IMG/VR virus record: IMGVR_UViG_3300006919_000297
Span: 1-28,775 of that record
Reading direction: 5' to 3' (one strand)
Length of the DNA stretch: 28,775 nucleotides
Origin: a virus
Shown: piece after piece, positions 1,617-9,734 of the stretch
Numbering within the stretch: position 1 is the stretch's first letter
Layout: each line of letters opens with the position of its first letter
Made by a program: the position numbers and the translations under genes
The notes under the pieces: generated by a model
Seen by the model: the letters and a program-made list of their open reading frames with translations, nothing else
Told to the model about the DNA's origin: nothing
Database searches by the model: none

Positions 1617-2189
1617 ATGACTAGACCAAGGTCAGTAGCAGAAATCAAAGCAAAGTTATTGAGACCAGCAACTACAAATCACTTCTCTGTGAATATCACT
1701 CTTCCATCAGGATTGAGAGAAATTTTACCCAGTTATAACCAAGATGATTTGAACTTGATGTGTTCCGATGCATCTCTTCCTGGTCATAGGTTAGCAACAT
1801 TTGAAGCAACCAATGATAGGTATGGTGTTACTGAGAGACACGCATATAGAAAAGTTCACGATGATGAGATGAGCCTCACATTCTACGTGGATGAAGAGAA
1901 GTATCTTCCCATAAGAGTGTTTGAAGGTTGGATGGCATTTATTACAAATGAAGCTGATAATTCAGGAGACTATAACTATTCATATAAGGTAAAGTATCCT
2001 AGAGAATATAGAAGTTTTATGGAAATATATAAATTTGAGAAAGATTATGATACCTCTGTGATGTATCAGTTCTATGATTGTTACCCAACTTCAATTGCAT
2101 CAACACCAGTATCATATTCAGATCAGAATAGTCTGCTGAAATATACAGTTGGATTCTCTTATATCAAGTATAGAACATTCATACAATGA
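1617..2189 (+). CDS. tail-tube-fold protein, gp54-like baseplate tail-tube initiator
   Basis: The 190-residue product has the layout of the T4 gp19/gp54 tail-tube fold. A strand-rich start (TNHFSVNITLPSG) leads to the CSDASLPGHRLATFEA motif (about residues 49-64). Then come DDEMSLTFYVDEE (about 82-94), a helix IRVFEGWMAFI (about 98-108), and a closing YQFYDCYPTSIASTPVSYS...LLKYTVGFSYIKYRT (about 151-187). The 'C.P..I....VSY......L.Y.V.F.Y' ending is shared with gp54 and gp19. At 190 residues it is shorter than T4 gp54 (about 320) and close to tube-protein size. Because it neighbours gp26 and the hub genes, I favour the tube initiator over the major tube protein. It is the first gene of the plus-strand tail operon and starts right after the divergent gp4 promoter region. 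Confidence 0.72.
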   Translation: MTRPRSVAEIKAKLLRPATTNHFSVNITLPSGLREILPSYNQDDLNLMCSDASLPGHRLATFEATNDRYGVTERHAYRKVHDDEMSLTFYVDEEKYLPIRVFEGWMAFITNEADNSGDYNYSYKVKYPREYRSFMEIYKFEKDYDTSVMYQFYDCYPTSIASTPVSYSDQNSLLKYTVGFSYIKYRTFIQ

Positions 2190-2226: not shown

Positions 2227-2946
2227 ATGCCTTTACCAAAGATTGCTACACCAACTTATGAACTTGAGTTGCCTTCATCAGAAAAAACGATTAAATACAG
2301 ACCCTTCCTTGTAAAAGAAGAGAAACTTCTTGTGATTGCATTGGAGAGTGAGGACAATAAGCAAATCACTACAGCAGTCAAGAGTGTTATTCAAAACTGT
2401 ATTTTGACTAGAGGAATCAAAGTAGAGCAACTGCCTACGTTTGATATTGAATTCTTGTTTCTAAACATTCGCGGCAAGTCTGTTGGTGAAGAACTTGAAG
2501 TGAATCTTATCTGTCCTGATGATGGTAAGACACAAGTATCTGTCTGGTTAGACCTGGATGATATCAAAGTATTCAAACCAGAAGGTCACGACAAGTGTAT
2601 CAAACTTGACGATACCATTGCAATGGAGATGAAGTATCCATCACTGGAACAGTTTATCTCTAACAACTTTGACTTCACGGATAAGAATGCGATGGATCAA
2701 TCGTTTGAATTGATCGCATCTTGTATTGATAAGGTGTTCACTGAAGAAGAGGTGTGGGCAGCAGCAGATTGCACCAAGAAAGAAATCAAAGAATTTGTTG
2801 AGTCAATGAACTCTTCGCAGTTCAAGAAGATTGAGAAGTTCTTTGAGACAATGCCTAAACTGTCTCATAAACTTACGATCAAGAACCCTAAGACTAAAGT
2901 AGAAAGTGATGTCATCCTGGAGGGACTTGCATCTTTTTTCGCGTAG
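2227..2946 (+). CDS. 26: baseplate hub / tail assembly protein gp26
   Basis: The 239-residue protein belongs to the T4 gp26 (T4_baseplate) family. Hallmarks are the N-terminal YELELPSSEKTIKYRPFLVK followed by EEKLLVIALES (about residues 11-41) and the VIQNCILTRGI segment (about 54-64). Also present are FDIEFLFLNIRGKSVGEELEV (about 72-92), a cysteine-containing CPDDGKT (about 96-102), and the C-terminal FFETMPKLSHKLTIKNPKT...VILEGLASFF (about 205-238). T4 gp26 takes part in hub assembly. By position, just before tape-measure-like genes, it occupies the place of the tail assembly chaperone in other phages. It ends TTT TTC GCG TAG, so only one alanine follows the slippery phenylalanine codons; see the frameshift entry. 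A CTAAATA element precedes it. Length is close to T4 gp26 (208). Confidence 0.93.
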   Translation: MPLPKIATPTYELELPSSEKTIKYRPFLVKEEKLLVIALESEDNKQITTAVKSVIQNCILTRGIKVEQLPTFDIEFLFLNIRGKSVGEELEVNLICPDDGKTQVSVWLDLDDIKVFKPEGHDKCIKLDDTIAMEMKYPSLEQFISNNFDFTDKNAMDQSFELIASCIDKVFTEEEVWAAADCTKKEIKEFVESMNSSQFKKIEKFFETMPKLSHKLTIKNPKTKVESDVILEGLASFFA

Positions 2947-2967
2947 CCCTGATCCATATGGATCTGG
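2919..2967 (+). promoter_or_regulatory. programmed -1 ribosomal frameshift signal at the end of gp26
   Basis: Three parts line up as in classical bacterial -1 sites such as dnaX. (1) A Shine-Dalgarno-like GGAGGG lies at 2919-2924. (2) Nine bases later is the heptamer T TTT TTC at 2934-2940, exactly in gp26 phase (X XXY YYZ), where both Phe tRNAs can re-pair with TTT TTT after slipping back. (3) A hairpin follows, with the stem GATCC/GGATC around an ATAT loop (2951-2964), extendable by CC/GG across a T-T mismatch to 2948-2967, beginning 7-10 bases after the heptamer. The gp26 stop codon follows at 2944. The frame entered is open to 3122. Sequence parts are seen directly; function is inferred. 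Confidence 0.72.
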
Positions 2968-3122
2968 AAAACTACTATCGTCTAAACTTTGCCTTGGTGC
3001 AGTACCATAAATATTCATTGACTGAAATTGAAAATCTTATTCCTTGGGAACGAGACATTTATGTTGGTTTATTAGAATCGCATCTTGAAGATGAAAAACT
3101 AAAACAACAGCAAAATGGTTGA
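2958..3122 (+). CDS. C-terminal extension of gp26 made by -1 frameshifting (tail assembly chaperone, gpT-like); also a possible 54-residue stand-alone ORF
   Basis: This frame is -1 relative to gp26 and is open without interruption from the slip site. After slipping, the first new codon is CGC at 2940, and 60 codons follow to TGA 3120-3122. The predicted fusion is about 298 residues, joining the gp26 ending GLASFF to RVALIHMDLENYYRLN. An internal ATG at 2958 would give 54 residues, but it lies inside the hairpin and has no good ribosome binding site. The product is helical and acidic, with a compact YHKYSLTEIENLIPWERDIY segment and a charged tail EDEKLKQQQ. This shape and its place directly before the tape-measure-like gene parallel the T part of lambda gpG/gpGT chaperones. 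Its last eight bases overlap the start of the next gene. Whether T4 gp51 is related I cannot tell. Confidence 0.68.
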   Translation: MDLENYYRLNFALVQYHKYSLTEIENLIPWERDIYVGLLESHLEDEKLKQQQNG

Positions 3123-6100
3123 CTATAAGATAGAACCCCCTTATGAAGCACTAGACAAAGACCGTCCTTGGTATACTGCTAAGGTTGGTGTAACCACTTG
3201 GAATATTCTCAAGGCAAAATTGACCGGTGGTACTGAACCTGGTGGTACATCATATGCATCAACAGTCAATCTATCTGATGAAGATGCTGATAAACTCATA
3301 GAAAATATGAAGAAGGATCCTAGAGGGTATCCTCAATTTGATGATGGTGGCGGGGGAATGAAATTCTATGAAAATTATGAGAAGTATCAGGCGTGGTTAG
3401 TAGAACAATACTTGGGCAAACCAGTAGAACAAGAAGAAGAGGAAGAGTTAGAAGAAGATATTCCAGAGGGACTTGACGATCTGTTAGGTTCTATACAAGA
3501 AGATGATGAAGAAATACCAGCAGGACTTGATGACCTTCTAGGATCTATTCAAGAACCAAAAGTAACTACTATAAAATCATCTGCGATTGTACCTACCAAA
3601 TTTCTTGGCGAAAGGTATGAGAAGTATCGTGATGAGTTGATAGCAGAAGGCACCATTGAAGGTGAGCAACTGACTGGCGAAGAAAGAAAAGAAGGATTCA
3701 AAACAAGAAACGATCCTAATAAATTTGGTACATTCATTGAAAATTTTCTAAACCGAAAGAAAAAATCTGATGAGGTAGAGACTGCTGGTGGTGGTGCAGT
3801 TATAGTAACAAAACAACTTATAGACCCAGATAAGATTGTTCCTCTGGAAGAAGATGATGATGGTTTAGATTCAGTAACAAAAAAACTTGATGAACTTCTT
3901 GCTACGGTCAAAGAAGGTTTCAAGTTAGAAGAAGATAAAGCAGAGTCAGATAGAAAAGCAGAAGAAAAGAAAAAGAGAAAGAAGACAGAAAAAGAATTAG
4001 AAACCAGTAAGGAATCTTTTTTAGGTAAAGCAGCAAAGCAAATAATCAAACCAGTCAAGAGTTTACTTGATAAGATATTTGGTTTCTTGAAGACTCTCTT
4101 ATTAGGCAAGGCATTGATGTCCTTGATTGATTGGATTGCTAACCCAGAGAACAGAGGAAAGATTGATACTATCTTCAGGTTCTTCAAGGATTGGTGGCCT
4201 ACCTTACTTGGTGCTTACATACTATTTGGTACGTCATTTGGTAAATTTGTACGGTCAATCATTGGACTGACTGCTAGATTTACTAAGAAAATACTTACTA
4301 AGGCATTACCATCTCTACTGAAAGCAGCAAAAGCAAATCCAATTGCTGCTGCTGGTCTTGCTGTTGTAGGCACTGCTGCTGTAGGTGGTATTGCACAGTC
4401 AATGACGCCATCTAATGACCCCGAAGCAGAGGAAGGTCAGTCACAACTAGACGATACTCAAGACTTTGGCGGTATCACTGGTGCTCCCATCAGTGGTGAT
4501 ATGCTTGGGTTCCAAGGTGGCGGCGAAGTCAAAGGTAAACCCGGCATTGACCAGAACCCTGCTATGCTCACTGATGGTGAGTTTGTAATGAGCAAGGGTG
4601 CCGTTCAGAAGTATGGACTTGATACATTAGAGGCAATGAATGCTGCTGGAGGCGGCACCAATATGCCTAAGATAATGAACAAGATTACCTATGCTGCTGG
4701 TGGTGGTTTGATTGGTGAGAGAAAAGGTGATAAGTATGAGAAACCATTACCAGAACCAGTAGCATTAGCAATGGATGGTGGTGGAGAAAGTTTCAATATA
4801 TTCAATCCAATGTCCTGGTTTAGGGGTGATGCACAGAAGGCAACCAAAGGCGAACTACAAGATGTAAGTAACGACACTCTTGCTGGTAAATTATATAACA
4901 GAAGAAAGAAACAAGAAGAAGCAATGAAGATGCTTCGTGGTTATGATGGAGGTGGCGAAGTTAAAGGTGGTAGCAGTTTCAACATATTCAATCCAATGTC
5001 TTGGTTCAGTGGTGATGCACAGAAAGCGACTGATGGTAAGTTAGATAATGTGAGCAATAATACTCTTGCTGGGAAGTTATATAATAGAAGGAAACAACAA
5101 GAAGAAGCAATGAAGATGCTTCGTGGTTATGATGGAGGTGGTGAAGTTGAACAGACACCTATTGAGAAGATGGAGTTCAACCCTAGCAATTATTTCCAAG
5201 GTGATAATGTATACAGTAGTAAGAGAATTGTAAACCCAGGTCAAACAGGTAAGAGTTTCTTTGTTAGATACGCACAGAATGATGATGGAAGCATAGAAGT
5301 TAGACAAGTCAATAAGGTTGTAAAGGATGGTAATATCTTCAATGGATTTACTCCTGACCTTACAGGAGTCAAACCTGGTTCAGAAGAGTTCCAAAAGGTA
5401 GTTGGTTCCGCCAATACTAAAAATATAATTGAAAATGAACTAAAAGATAGAGCAAAATTTACCACTAGAAGTTCAAGTGTTTCAAAAGAAATGAAACCTG
5501 AACGTGATAAAGTAAATGCTTGGATAAAGGGTGGTAGAAATCTAACCGTCAGTCCACACGCTATGGTTGGATATGATTACAACCAATCATATCAAACAAC
5601 TAAACAAGCATTTGCAGATAGAGGTGTTGAAGGTAAGAAAGGAGAAGAGTTATCTGCATCGGCAGCAGCACAACTTGCTATGCCTACTCTTGAGGATGAT
5701 AAGACTGTGTTACCTACATCTGATGAGTCACGCATCTCTACTGATACTGTAAATCAATATACTGTTGCTAAAACACCACAGAAACAAGATAATAAACCAG
5801 AGAGTGCTCTTGATATCATTAAGAATTACTTGATGGCGGGTTTGAGTATGAGTGGTGAAAAAAAGAAAGATAAAAAGGAAGACAACTCACTGGGTGAAAT
5901 TATCACTGGGGAGACTCAAGAGAAAGAAACCAGACTTACAAGTCCAAGTGCAGGGTATGGTAGTCAGGGTAGTAAGATTGCAGGTAATCTTGGCAAATAT
6001 ATTGAACAGAATCTGGTGTCTGCTGCGAAAGCATCTGATGGTTATGGAGACTACAATAAAATTACAGAACACCCAGACTTTGGTGGTGTTGTAGGTAGAC

Positions 6101-6723
6101 ACGCCACAGGTTCATATCATGATGATGGTAGAGCACTTGATATTGGTGCATATACAAATGAACAGGGTAAGATTGTAAAGGTCATAAACGAATTCAATAG
6201 AAAGAATAGCGTCAGACCAGCAGAGTTGATTACTGGTAGACAGTTCCAGGGCACTACGATGGTTGACCCTGGTGGACATAGTGACCACGTTCACGTTGCA
6301 TATAGTAGTGGTGGCGAAGTCAAAGGTAAACCTGGTATCGATAAGAACCCGGCTATGTTGAGCAAGGGTGAGATTGTTATGAACAATGAGGCAGTACAAG
6401 GTGTTGGTAAACAAAATCTACTTGCTGCTAACAAATATTATGGTGGACAGGATGCAAACAAACCCAAGATTGTAAAGGGTACAATGCACGCCGCTAGTGG
6501 TGGATATGTTCCTGGTCCTGCTCCTGCAATGGTTGGTGATAAGAGTGTGAAGTCTACACCGATTACCCCATTGAATAGGTCGAAACCAAAGGTTACTTTT
6601 GTTGACCTTGGTTCTGATACTGAGACTATTGGTCCTACTGGTGGTGCTGAATCATCTATTCCAGCATTCAGTGCTGCTTCTAGATCAAGAACTAAACTCA
6701 ACACACTGGGGATTAATCTCTGA
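3115..6723 (+). CDS. tape-measure-like tail protein with C-terminal M15-type peptidase domain
   Basis: The 1202-residue protein directly follows the chaperone genes, the usual slot for a tail tape measure. Residues 1-320 are charged and repetitive, with two copies of a 'G.DDLLGSIQE' unit near 117 and 136 and a Lys/Glu-rich coil near 270-300. Hydrophobic stretches follow (about 325-380 and 400-440: FGFLKTLLLGKALMSLIDW, PIAAAGLAVVGTAAVGGIAQ). Two 'GGEVKGKPGID.NPAML..GE.VM' motifs appear near 470 and 1065, a pattern seen at tape-measure C-terminal regions. Between them lie a 62-residue tandem repeat (about 559-680) and, at about 983-1064, an M15-like zinc peptidase domain with SYHDDGRALDIG (H1002, D1009) and GHSDHVHVAY (H1058, H1060). 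Such a domain would cleave peptidoglycan peptides during DNA entry. The stop overlaps the next ATG (TGATG). Tape-measure role: inferred. Confidence 0.75.
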   Translation: MVDYKIEPPYEALDKDRPWYTAKVGVTTWNILKAKLTGGTEPGGTSYASTVNLSDEDADKLIENMKKDPRGYPQFDDGGGGMKFYENYEKYQAWLVEQYLGKPVEQEEEEELEEDIPEGLDDLLGSIQEDDEEIPAGLDDLLGSIQEPKVTTIKSSAIVPTKFLGERYEKYRDELIAEGTIEGEQLTGEERKEGFKTRNDPNKFGTFIENFLNRKKKSDEVETAGGGAVIVTKQLIDPDKIVPLEEDDDGLDSVTKKLDELLATVKEGFKLEEDKAESDRKAEEKKKRKKTEKELETSKESFLGKAAKQIIKPVKSLLDKIFGFLKTLLLGKALMSLIDWIANPENRGKIDTIFRFFKDWWPTLLGAYILFGTSFGKFVRSIIGLTARFTKKILTKALPSLLKAAKANPIAAAGLAVVGTAAVGGIAQSMTPSNDPEAEEGQSQLDDTQDFGGITGAPISGDMLGFQGGGEVKGKPGIDQNPAMLTDGEFVMSKGAVQKYGLDTLEAMNAAGGGTNMPKIMNKITYAAGGGLIGERKGDKYEKPLPEPVALAMDGGGESFNIFNPMSWFRGDAQKATKGELQDVSNDTLAGKLYNRRKKQEEAMKMLRGYDGGGEVKGGSSFNIFNPMSWFSGDAQKATDGKLDNVSNNTLAGKLYNRRKQQEEAMKMLRGYDGGGEVEQTPIEKMEFNPSNYFQGDNVYSSKRIVNPGQTGKSFFVRYAQNDDGSIEVRQVNKVVKDGNIFNGFTPDLTGVKPGSEEFQKVVGSANTKNIIENELKDRAKFTTRSSSVSKEMKPERDKVNAWIKGGRNLTVSPHAMVGYDYNQSYQTTKQAFADRGVEGKKGEELSASAAAQLAMPTLEDDKTVLPTSDESRISTDTVNQYTVAKTPQKQDNKPESALDIIKNYLMAGLSMSGEKKKDKKEDNSLGEIITGETQEKETRLTSPSAGYGSQGSKIAGNLGKYIEQNLVSAAKASDGYGDYNKITEHPDFGGVVGRHATGSYHDDGRALDIGAYTNEQGKIVKVINEFNRKNSVRPAELITGRQFQGTTMVDPGGHSDHVHVAYSSGGEVKGKPGIDKNPAMLSKGEIVMNNEAVQGVGKQNLLAANKYYGGQDANKPKIVKGTMHAASGGYVPGPAPAMVGDKSVKSTPITPLNRSKPKVTFVDLGSDTETIGPTGGAESSIPAFSAASRSRTKLNTLGINL
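4789..5148 (+). repeat. tandem duplication, period 186 bp, inside the first tape-measure-like gene
   Basis: Two in-frame units of 62 codons start at 4789 and 4975; similarity stops near 5148. Each begins SFNIFNPMSWF.GDAQKAT and ends KMLRGYDGGGEV. DNA differences are mostly at third positions (for example tcctgg/tcttgg, gaagcaatgaagatgcttcg identical), so this is an older duplication kept under selection rather than an assembly artefact. Confidence 0.9.
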
Positions 6724-9700
6724 TGGCAGTAGATATTCAAAAACTTTTACCACAAAGACCGGTAGAGAACAGAACCATAGTTCTTCTCAGTGATACTTCT
6801 ATCATCAAAGTTGGTGATAGAAAGAAGGAGAAGTATGCAGAGGTAACAGAGAAGATTGATACTGCAACTAAACTTTTAGCAGGGACACTTGCTGAAGAGA
6901 AGAAAAGAATCAATGATGAGAGGAGAGAGAAAGAAAAAGAATCAAGATCTGGACAGGAAGCAGATTTAGAAAAAGGAAAGAAGAAGAAAAGTGAGAAAGA
7001 TTTGACGGTAAAGAAACCGAAGATGAGTTTCCTTGATAGGATAAAGAAGTTTATCAATGATATTATCTTCGGGTTTCTTCTGATAAAATTAGTAGACTAT
7101 GCACCAGTATTAGTTCCGATTGCTAAAGGACTAGCAGCAACAGTCAAGTTTGTTGTTGATATTGCTGGTAAGATACTGAATAGTCTAGTAACTCTTGTTG
7201 ATTGGGGATACAAGGCATACGACTGGACTAGAGGTGCGATAAAAAATATCGGTGGAGAAGAAGCAGCAGAGAACTTTGATAAGTTAGCAGGTGCTCTCAA
7301 TAAGTTCCTGAATGCTGCATTGATTGTTGCTATGGCGTCTTCTGGTGCCATGGGCAAAGATAAGTCTTTGAAACCTGGTGCAGGTAGACCTGATGCTAAG
7401 GTTAGAACTTCCAAAGCAAGTAAGGCAGCAAGAGTCAGATATGCTAGAAGGTTTGGTGGTGATGCAGCGAGGAGAAGATTCAAAGGCAATGTTGCTGGTA
7501 GAGGATTTGGTGCTGCTGTAGCAAAGAGAACACCCCAGGCACTCAAAACAATATTCAAACCACTCAAACCTTTCCTGAAGAGGATACCTTTCATTGGTGG
7601 TCTGATTGACTTTGCAATCAATTACTTTATCCTGAAGGAACCACTAGGCAAAGCAGCATTCAAAGCAATTGGTAGTACAATTGTTGCTGGTATTGGTGCT
7701 GCTATTGGTAGTGTGATACCTGGTCCTGGTACACTTGTTGGCGCTGCACTTGGTGGTATGGCGGGTGATGCTTTAGCAGATACCATCTATGATATGATAT
7801 TCAAGAAGAAAGAACCTAAAGAACCCAAAGTTGAAGGGCAGTCAGAAGGTGGTATTTCTTCTAGAACTATTGGTGGCGAAAGAAAAGATATTGGTGCCAC
7901 AGTCAAAGAAGATACACAACGTAAACCTGATCAAGTAAAGATAAAGGGAAAAGAAGAAATCAGCACAGATTATAGTAAGATAGATTACTTTGGACCTATA
8001 CTTGCTGTATCTAATAAAATGATATTGGGTGAGCAGATTACACCACGCGACTATGAAAGTATTGGTCAAGGTTTTACTAACCTATATCTTGATGGTATAG
8101 AAGATGGTGAGATAAAAGGTAAGTCAGGTATCAAGGAGTGGGTCACCAGTTCTATGGAGAAAGAGGTTGAAAAGAATAAAGAGACTCTGAAAAAAGTAGA
8201 GAGTGAATCAGAAATAGGGGATGAAGAAGATGAAGATACGCCAACAACTGCTGAAGGTCTGATTGCCGAATATCTCAAGACAAAACTAGGAATAAAACCA
8301 CCTAAACCTAAAACTAAATCTACAGCAGGAACAGGAACTGTTGCTGGTGATAGAGACAGTGCTACTGGTGCATTGATGGATGCTAACATAGCAGGCACAG
8401 AGTTAGATTTATTCCAGAGATTAGTTATTGCCGAGTCTGGTGGTGAAGGACCAGTAGGTATGGCTTTGGTTGCTAGAAGCGTATTGAATCGTGCTGGTCT
8501 AATACAATCAGGTAAGGCATCAACAGGTACATTCTTGGCGAATGACTCTAGTATCACTGGTGTAATTATGGGATCTGGTCAATATCAACCTATCTCAGAT
8601 GGTAGTATCAATACACCTAGAACAGATGCTCAAATGGCGACTGCTCTTGAGGCAATCAAGACAGCACAGAATGTAGATAAGTTGAGAGGTATTCTCAAGA
8701 GTGAAGGGTATGATGACTCTACTGTGACCAAGATGTTAGCAGCAACTGGTTTCAGAACTGGTAGTGCATTCAGAGATGCATCACAGCAAGTCAATGTAAC
8801 TCAACACGGCAATCATTTCTTCAACACAGCAGGTAATACTGGGTTACTAATTGTTGGTGGTAGTCTTGCTGATGCTCAAGCACCATCTGCCGATATACAA
8901 GACGATATCAAACCAGGAAGAGATAAGAAGTTATATCTACACTGGACTGCTGGTGGATATAATGACCCTATTGGCGGATATCACACAGTCATCACTGGTG
9001 ATGGTAAAGTACACCGTAAGATAGACTACAATAAGACAGGCAAACATACAGAAAGTCGTAATCAGAACTCTGTTGGTCTTGCAGTTGCTGCTATGGCAGG
9101 GTCAGAAGGTAACTATCAGTGGCCAAAGCAAATACAAATTGATAGATTAGCAGAAGAGTCGGCTAAGATTACAAAGGCTTGGGGTTGGACACCATCAGAT
9201 ATCACTATCAATAAGGTAATGACTCACGGCGAGGCAGGTTCAGGTAAGGATGGATACTTACCTGCTGTTAGTAGGAAACCATACAACTATGGTCCTACTG
9301 TATGGGGTGGTGATGGTTCTCGTTGGGACTTAGATATGCTTTCACCATCTGATAAGATTGGTGATGGTGGACAGAAACTTCGTAGTATGATAAAGGCGAA
9401 GTATGCTATGGGTGGTAAGACAAAACCTGGTCCACACTTAGCAATGGTAGGTGAGGAAGGAACAGAGTTTGTTCTTGACCACGATTCGTTCAAGGCAATT
9501 GAACAGGCAGCACCTGGTTTCCTTGACCTTCTGAATAAAGCAGAGGGTAAGAAAGCAGCAGACTTGCTGATGAATTACACATCATATAATGACCCAACCG
9601 GTGGAGAGACTATTGTTATGAGTAAGACTAAGGTCAGACAAATTGTTGCTCCATACAGTGGTAGTACATCAACTCGTTATGTTCCTATGGGAGGAGGTTC

Positions 9701-9734
9701 ATCTAACAATGAAACTCTTGATTATTATGGTTAA
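6723..9734 (+). CDS. tape-measure-like tail protein with SleB-type hydrolase and zinc amidase domains
   Basis: The 1003-residue protein repeats the plan of its upstream neighbour. It has a Lys/Glu-rich coil (about residues 30-100), a hydrophobic segment (about 104-160, IKKFINDIIFGFLLIKLVDY), a basic Arg-rich stretch (about 217-265), and Gly/Ala membrane-like segments (about 308-355). Two lytic domains follow. At about 560-702 is a SleB/CwlJ-type cell-wall hydrolase: FQRLVIAESGGEGPVGMALV with candidate catalytic E571 or E575, VLNRA, GQYQP, and the closing H.FF. At about 736-873 is an amidase_2-type N-acetylmuramoyl-L-alanine amidase: LYLHWTAGGY with zinc ligand H740, VMTHGE with H835, and RWDLD with D869. 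The C-terminus carries PHLAMVGEEGTEFVL, a motif typical of tape-measure ends. It overlaps the previous gene by one base. Lytic activity is inferred from these residues. Confidence 0.8.
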   Translation: MAVDIQKLLPQRPVENRTIVLLSDTSIIKVGDRKKEKYAEVTEKIDTATKLLAGTLAEEKKRINDERREKEKESRSGQEADLEKGKKKKSEKDLTVKKPKMSFLDRIKKFINDIIFGFLLIKLVDYAPVLVPIAKGLAATVKFVVDIAGKILNSLVTLVDWGYKAYDWTRGAIKNIGGEEAAENFDKLAGALNKFLNAALIVAMASSGAMGKDKSLKPGAGRPDAKVRTSKASKAARVRYARRFGGDAARRRFKGNVAGRGFGAAVAKRTPQALKTIFKPLKPFLKRIPFIGGLIDFAINYFILKEPLGKAAFKAIGSTIVAGIGAAIGSVIPGPGTLVGAALGGMAGDALADTIYDMIFKKKEPKEPKVEGQSEGGISSRTIGGERKDIGATVKEDTQRKPDQVKIKGKEEISTDYSKIDYFGPILAVSNKMILGEQITPRDYESIGQGFTNLYLDGIEDGEIKGKSGIKEWVTSSMEKEVEKNKETLKKVESESEIGDEEDEDTPTTAEGLIAEYLKTKLGIKPPKPKTKSTAGTGTVAGDRDSATGALMDANIAGTELDLFQRLVIAESGGEGPVGMALVARSVLNRAGLIQSGKASTGTFLANDSSITGVIMGSGQYQPISDGSINTPRTDAQMATALEAIKTAQNVDKLRGILKSEGYDDSTVTKMLAATGFRTGSAFRDASQQVNVTQHGNHFFNTAGNTGLLIVGGSLADAQAPSADIQDDIKPGRDKKLYLHWTAGGYNDPIGGYHTVITGDGKVHRKIDYNKTGKHTESRNQNSVGLAVAAMAGSEGNYQWPKQIQIDRLAEESAKITKAWGWTPSDITINKVMTHGEAGSGKDGYLPAVSRKPYNYGPTVWGGDGSRWDLDMLSPSDKIGDGGQKLRSMIKAKYAMGGKTKPGPHLAMVGEEGTEFVLDHDSFKAIEQAAPGFLDLLNKAEGKKAADLLMNYTSYNDPTGGETIVMSKTKVRQIVAPYSGSTSTRYVPMGGGSSNNETLDYYG

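Follow-up and report, generated by a model that had tools for sequence, protein, structure and literature searches.

The question raised by this locus is whether the short open reading frame (ORF) downstream of gp26, usually treated as a gene of its own, is translated independently or is the second part of a longer gp26 product that arises by −1 ribosomal frameshifting. The stretch of DNA that was analyzed, called “the window” here, is the complete IMG/VR record IMGVR_UViG_3300006919_000297 with 28,775 bases. It is an incomplete phage contig and represents a fragment of a T4-like cyanophage from the ocean, with Synechococcus and Prochlorococcus myoviruses as the nearest named relatives. The gene order around the site is a tail tube-like gene, gp26, and a large ORF with weak matches to tape measure proteins, the assignment of this last gene being weak. 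The features of the locus are as follows.

1617 to 2189, plus strand: tail tube-like gene, upstream syntenic context (phrog_45 “tail tube,” E = 2.3e-37; PF23849, E = 2.2e-6)
2227 to 2946, plus strand: gp26 short form, putative G-like tail assembly chaperone of 239 amino acids (PF12322, E = 2.2e-74; phrog_150 “baseplate hub,” E = 4.2e-80)
2919 to 2924, plus strand: GGAGGG, Shine-Dalgarno-like motif inside gp26, likely 5′ frameshift stimulator (conserved spacing, codon bias)
2934 to 2940, plus strand: T_TTT_TTC, slippery heptamer in the phase of gp26 (zero-frame codons TTT at 2935 to 2937 and TTC at 2938 to 2940)
2940 to 3122, plus strand: −1 frame extension, T-like domain of 60 amino acids plus stop (phrog_634 and the C terminus of phrog_150; kept in the frameshift relatives)
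2944 to 2946, plus strand: zero-frame stop codon TAG of gp26 (read directly)
2951 to 2964, plus strand: stem-loop GATCC-ATAT-GGATC, likely 3′ stimulator (central part of a larger fold, 2943 to 2975)
2958 to 3122, plus strand: ORF of 54 amino acids, usually annotated as the separate gene gp51 (ATG inside the stem-loop, no Shine-Dalgarno sequence)
3115 to 6723, plus strand: large ORF of 1202 amino acids, candidate tape measure protein (tail length tape measure PHROGs matched weakly, E = 4e-4 to 6e-4; position)

The matches to PF12322 and phrog_150 spanned the whole length of gp26, and the PF12322 score of 250.3 bits was above the Pfam gathering cut-off of 24.5. A preliminary description of this sequence had named GGAGGG, the in-phase T_TTT_TTC, the hairpin, and a −1 frame open to position 3122, and all of these were found where it had placed them. 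The −1 frame had no stop between a point upstream of the heptamer and the TGA at 3120 to 3122, the stem-loop began 10 nt past the heptamer, and the ATG of the large ORF overlapped the end of the −1 frame ORF. A shift at the heptamer would add 60 residues after the SFF of gp26, RVALIHMDLENYYRLNFALVQYHKYSLTEIENLIPWERDIYVGLLESHLEDEKLKQQQNG, and the predicted GT-like long form would be composed of residues 1 to 238 of gp26 plus these 60 residues, 298 amino acids altogether. The junction peptide expected of this product is LASFFRVALIHMDL. Adjoining the tape measure candidate, an ORF of 1003 amino acids at positions 6723 to 9734 of the window contained an N-acetylmuramoyl-L-alanine amidase domain (PF01510) and also matched the cell wall hydrolase PF07486, just under the cut-off.

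Evaluation of the importance of such a site needs to consider how often it may occur by chance. The main ORFs of the window contained 32 in-phase heptamers of the X_XXY_YYZ type, and only that at 2934 to 2940 combined all parts of the signal, defined as a motif resembling a Shine-Dalgarno sequence, a fold of −8 kcal/mol or lower on the 3′ side, and a −1 frame passing the end of the gene. Synonymous shuffles of gp26 generated the heptamer alone in 16% of the trials, so that it is not rare in a single window, and the heptamer together with a Shine-Dalgarno-like motif in 7%. Judged from the sequences, the evidence of the single window is moderate and that of the comparison strong, with the weight coming from conservation across the relatives.

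The comparison used 321 loci from IMG/VR and from named phages with a readable gp26 stop. An in-phase T_TTT_TT[C/T/G] was positioned not more than 24 nt from this stop in 311 of them, and 6 of the remaining 10 possessed an in-phase heptamer slightly further upstream because their zero frame runs on longer. The slip site was kept with a zero-frame stop several codons downstream, and thus with a longer tail of the short form, in the loci L253, L279, L298, L299, L301, and L313. Only 4 of the 321 loci, 2 from Tevenvirinae and 2 from Vibrio phages, were without the heptamer. In the first set of IMG/VR relatives, TTTTTTC was located at the identical distance from the gp26 stop in every junction shown. 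The heptamer was kept in phase in Kyanoviridae and in phages of Sinorhizobium, Rhizobium, Aeromonas, Vibrio (KVP40 type), Cronobacter, and Stenotrophomonas, down to a protein identity of roughly 20 to 25%.

Codon choice at the site was evaluated in 222 distinct loci, which had been selected for the T run and are related, so that their counts are not independent trials, and nearly all loci qualified for this selection. The heptamer was TTTTTTC in 211 cases, TTTTTTT in 10, and TTTTTTG in 1. The Phe-Phe pair was encoded by TTT-TTC in 211 of the 222 sites (95%) compared to 10 of 227 pairs elsewhere in the same genes (4%). The base preceding the pair, a free third codon position, was a T in 222 of 222 loci versus 39% at the third positions of these genes, and the codons concerned varied, specifying Ser, Asn, Asp, Ala, Gly, Thr, or His.

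Upstream of the heptamer, within 20 nt, GAGG was present in 122 of the 222 distinct loci versus a background of 5.9% per 20-nt window, and in 114 of these 122 loci it ended at a distance of 10 nt from the heptamer. The glutamate codon supplying the GAGG was used with a GAG:GAA ratio of 114:29 at the site versus 1639:3618 elsewhere. Between about a third and a half of the loci had no Shine-Dalgarno-like motif. In dnaX and in many IS elements, −1 shifting is known to be stimulated by a Shine-Dalgarno sequence on the 5′ side (PMC5009743).

On the downstream side, the RNA from 2941 to 2985 of the window folded at −11.2 kcal/mol (z = −2.7). The mean folding energy of 45-nt windows over the 222 loci displayed a sharp minimum of −10.4 kcal/mol at +6 nt from the start of the heptamer, versus about −5 kcal/mol in most of the surroundings. 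This minimum was present in four cyanophage groups with differing stem sequences, being formed by 5-bp palindromic stems such as GGTCC-ATAT-GGACC in the window-like phages and by 9- to 11-bp stems in the P-SSM2-like and ACG-2014j-like phages. The stem-loop was weak or missing in distant phages (groups E and F). Covariation in the window-like loci was modest (0.88 paired versus a row-shuffle maximum of 0.84), and RNAalifold did not recover the stems of the single folds in groups B and C. A second, weaker minimum of the mean folding energy was located about 102 nt past the heptamer, within the −1 domain (about 3036 to 3080 in the window), and was strongest in the ACG-2014j-like phages. The alignment of the junction across relatives, which the preliminary description had suggested as a check of its reading, came out in favor of this reading for the heptamer and, in part of the loci, for the upstream motif and the fold.

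The −1 domain was assigned to phrog_634 “baseplate hub assembly catalyst” (E = 7.7e-25). A further match was to the C-terminal 40 positions of the profile for the gp26 family (phrog_150, positions 241 to 281, E = 2.2e-5). This indicates that some members of the gp26 family carry both parts as one chain. The domain was conserved in the frameshift relatives, the records of which call the ORF gp51 or hypothetical, or omit it. In L085, L088, and L089, it is unannotated and lies in a gap of about 160 to 180 nt between gp26 and the next gene.

If the −1 ORF was nevertheless an independent small gene gp51, its translation should begin at the ATG at 2958 or at one close to the stop of gp26, perhaps through coupled re-initiation. 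Most records annotate it as a gene, ATG codons recur at two positions (in 79 loci at each), and TAATG or TGATG overlaps exist in several distant phages and in the two Vibrio phages without heptamer. Within the first 15 codons of the −1 frame, however, an ATG was absent from 98 of the 222 distinct loci and any ATG, GTG, or TTG from 49, while a Shine-Dalgarno-like motif preceded such a start in only 15; a well-conserved independent start with a ribosome binding site, named in the preliminary description as a finding that would speak against frameshifting, was thus not encountered over the 222 loci. Moreover, the conserved part of the domain starts upstream of the ATG, the conservation of the heptamer and of its codon choice would be left unexplained, and the domain is fused to a gp26 domain in T4 gp51. 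Since neither the starts nor the ribosome binding sites are conserved, a separate gene was rejected as the general answer and is considered very unlikely. In Syn19 and ACG-2014j (Synechococcus), Cronobacter S13, Aeromonas 65, and ZPAH1, frameshifting would be the only evident route to the whole domain as far as their sequences indicate.

Alternatively, the RNA polymerase instead of the ribosome may slip on the run of six T, which would agree with the conservation of this run and with the slippage on A or T runs known in bacteria (PMC5009743). The bacterial cases, however, occur at runs of about nine A or T (PMC5009743), and transcriptional slippage needs neither a Shine-Dalgarno-like motif at a fixed spacing nor a downstream stem-loop, leaving this explanation hardly credible. 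Readthrough of the gp26 stop codon was considered and rejected: in the window, the zero frame closes again one codon further on (TAG CCC TGA), and the relatives differ widely in the length that follows the stop.

The number of gene copies is also informative with respect to frameshifting. One PF12322 gene was present in each of the 15 heptamer-bearing named phages that were searched as whole genomes, and two were present in T4, CGG4-1, and KMB19 in the same type of search. The slip site was missing in all three phages with a second PF12322 gene. The window, as an incomplete contig, contained one PF12322 gene, and the T4 arrangement of separate full-length long and short genes was seen neither there nor in the heptamer-bearing named phages searched. 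At the equivalent place, the end of T4 gp26 is GAG TTC TTT GAG, without heptamer. T4 gp26 and the short form aligned from end to end (E = 1.8e-18). T4 gp51 matched the gp26 domain (E = 8.9e-7; PF12322, E = 3.9e-52), and its last 50 residues matched the −1 domain (E = 7.3e-6) when the profile of this domain was built without T4 sequences. T4 gp26 resembles the short form and gp51 the gp26 domain plus the tail, which indicates that T4 makes both forms from two paralogous genes. In T4 and its close relatives, homology assigns the short form to gene 26 and the long form to gene 51. A passage in PMC10885494, crediting Vladimirov et al. 2022, states that the short and long chaperones of T4 come from separate genes.

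The Vibrio phages D503 and K474 lacked the heptamer and had one gene of the gp26 family, with a TAATG stop-start overlap leading into the −1 domain (2200 to 2240 in L091 for D503 and 2200 to 2240 in L328 for K474). This arrangement is possibly a third way of making the −1 domain, or it yields a free T-domain protein. A search of IMG/VR with the D503 query found no relatives. A disrupted heptamer, another finding that the preliminary description had listed against its reading, was limited to Tevenvirinae, which have the second full-length gene, and to these two Vibrio phages with their overlap.

The conservation of the site, its codon choice, the RNA structure, the absence of start codons in many loci, and the number of gene copies are the reasons to read the end of gp26, as the preliminary description did, as a three-part −1 frameshift signal from which a chaperone pair of the lambda G/GT type would arise, with a probability of roughly 93%. 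The gp26 protein would be the short form of the tail assembly chaperone. Ribosomes would pause at the last Phe-Phe due to the upstream Shine-Dalgarno-like sequence and the downstream stem-loop, and a minority of them may re-pair both Phe-tRNAs from TTT-TTC to TTT-TTT, enter the −1 frame, and finish the 298-residue long form. In lambda, gpG and gpGT attach to the tape measure protein and bring in the subunits of the tail tube (PMC5009743). By analogy, the tape measure protein of this phage would be covered by many copies of the short form and few of the long one, and tail tube subunits would be brought in through the extra domain of 60 residues. We infer the frameshifting event, its rate, and the chaperone role from the observed signal and its conservation. 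An AF2 model of gp26 (pLDDT 87.7) used for a fold search of the PDB retrieved the HK97 chaperone 2ob9 at rank 6 to 7 as a weak match (E = 0.7 to 1.5, probabilities of 0.33 and 0.14), and a sequence search of the PDB with the gp26 profile gave nothing meaningful.

Like the pair proposed for gp26, lambda gpG/gpGT consist of a short protein and a −1 extension, with slippage where the first ORF ends. The lambda genes are located between those for the tail tube and the tape measure, and gp26 follows a tail tube-like gene and precedes the weakly assigned tape measure candidate. On the other hand, gp26 belongs to a different protein family by sequence than lambda G, carries T_TTT_TTC instead of the lambda site, and has an upstream Shine-Dalgarno-like motif, and the fold match to this type of chaperone is weak. 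T4 gp26 and gp51 are homologous to the short and long forms, but the two genes are divergently placed and without a slippery site. In the TAC-N/TAC-NC pair of Vandenendeviridae (Pseudomonas phage Adele, PMC12846349), a poly-T slip site also ends the short chaperone, and the −1 ORF was also formerly annotated as a hypothetical gene. The Adele motif is GTTTTT in another phage family, and the passages of PMC12846349 concerned with it mention neither a Shine-Dalgarno sequence nor a stem-loop. The dnaX gene of Escherichia coli shares the upstream Shine-Dalgarno sequence, the slippery heptamer, and the downstream stem-loop with gp26 (PMC5009743). Unlike gp26, it is a cellular gene that slips at A_AAA_AAG and yields a shorter protein. 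The frameshift efficiency at dnaX is about 50%.

Vladimirov, Gautam and Davidson reportedly identified the T4-like chaperone genes (Virology 2022, 566:9-15). PMC12846349 (2025), the title of which stresses a mechanism other than frameshifting, contains a passage that credits this work by Vladimirov et al. with poly-T slippery sites in the short chaperone genes of T4-like phages. The core finding was therefore probably already reported, and the belief in the preliminary description that no site of this kind had been described in gp26 was probably wrong. Frameshift-made chaperone pairs as such are well known; what may be new is the lineage-adapted signal with its three parts and how widely it is conserved.

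There is about an even chance that the T4 superfamily as a whole keeps such a lineage-adapted three-part cassette at the end of gp26, with T4 as a derived exception due to gene duplication and some Vibrio phages using a stop-start overlap. If true, three interchangeable ways would exist to make the same chaperone pair. According to a 2016 review, long-tailed phages conserve the tail frameshift “except T4” (PMC5009743), and the two paralogous genes would account for this named exception. The “gp51, baseplate hub assembly catalyst” of cyanophages and many other T4-like phages would be explained as the tail of a frameshift product and not as a gene, which would correct a frequent misannotation or omission of this ORF in T4-like genomes. 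The gp26 locus would also provide a T4-related system in which synonymous mutations can alter the ratio of the short to the long chaperone.
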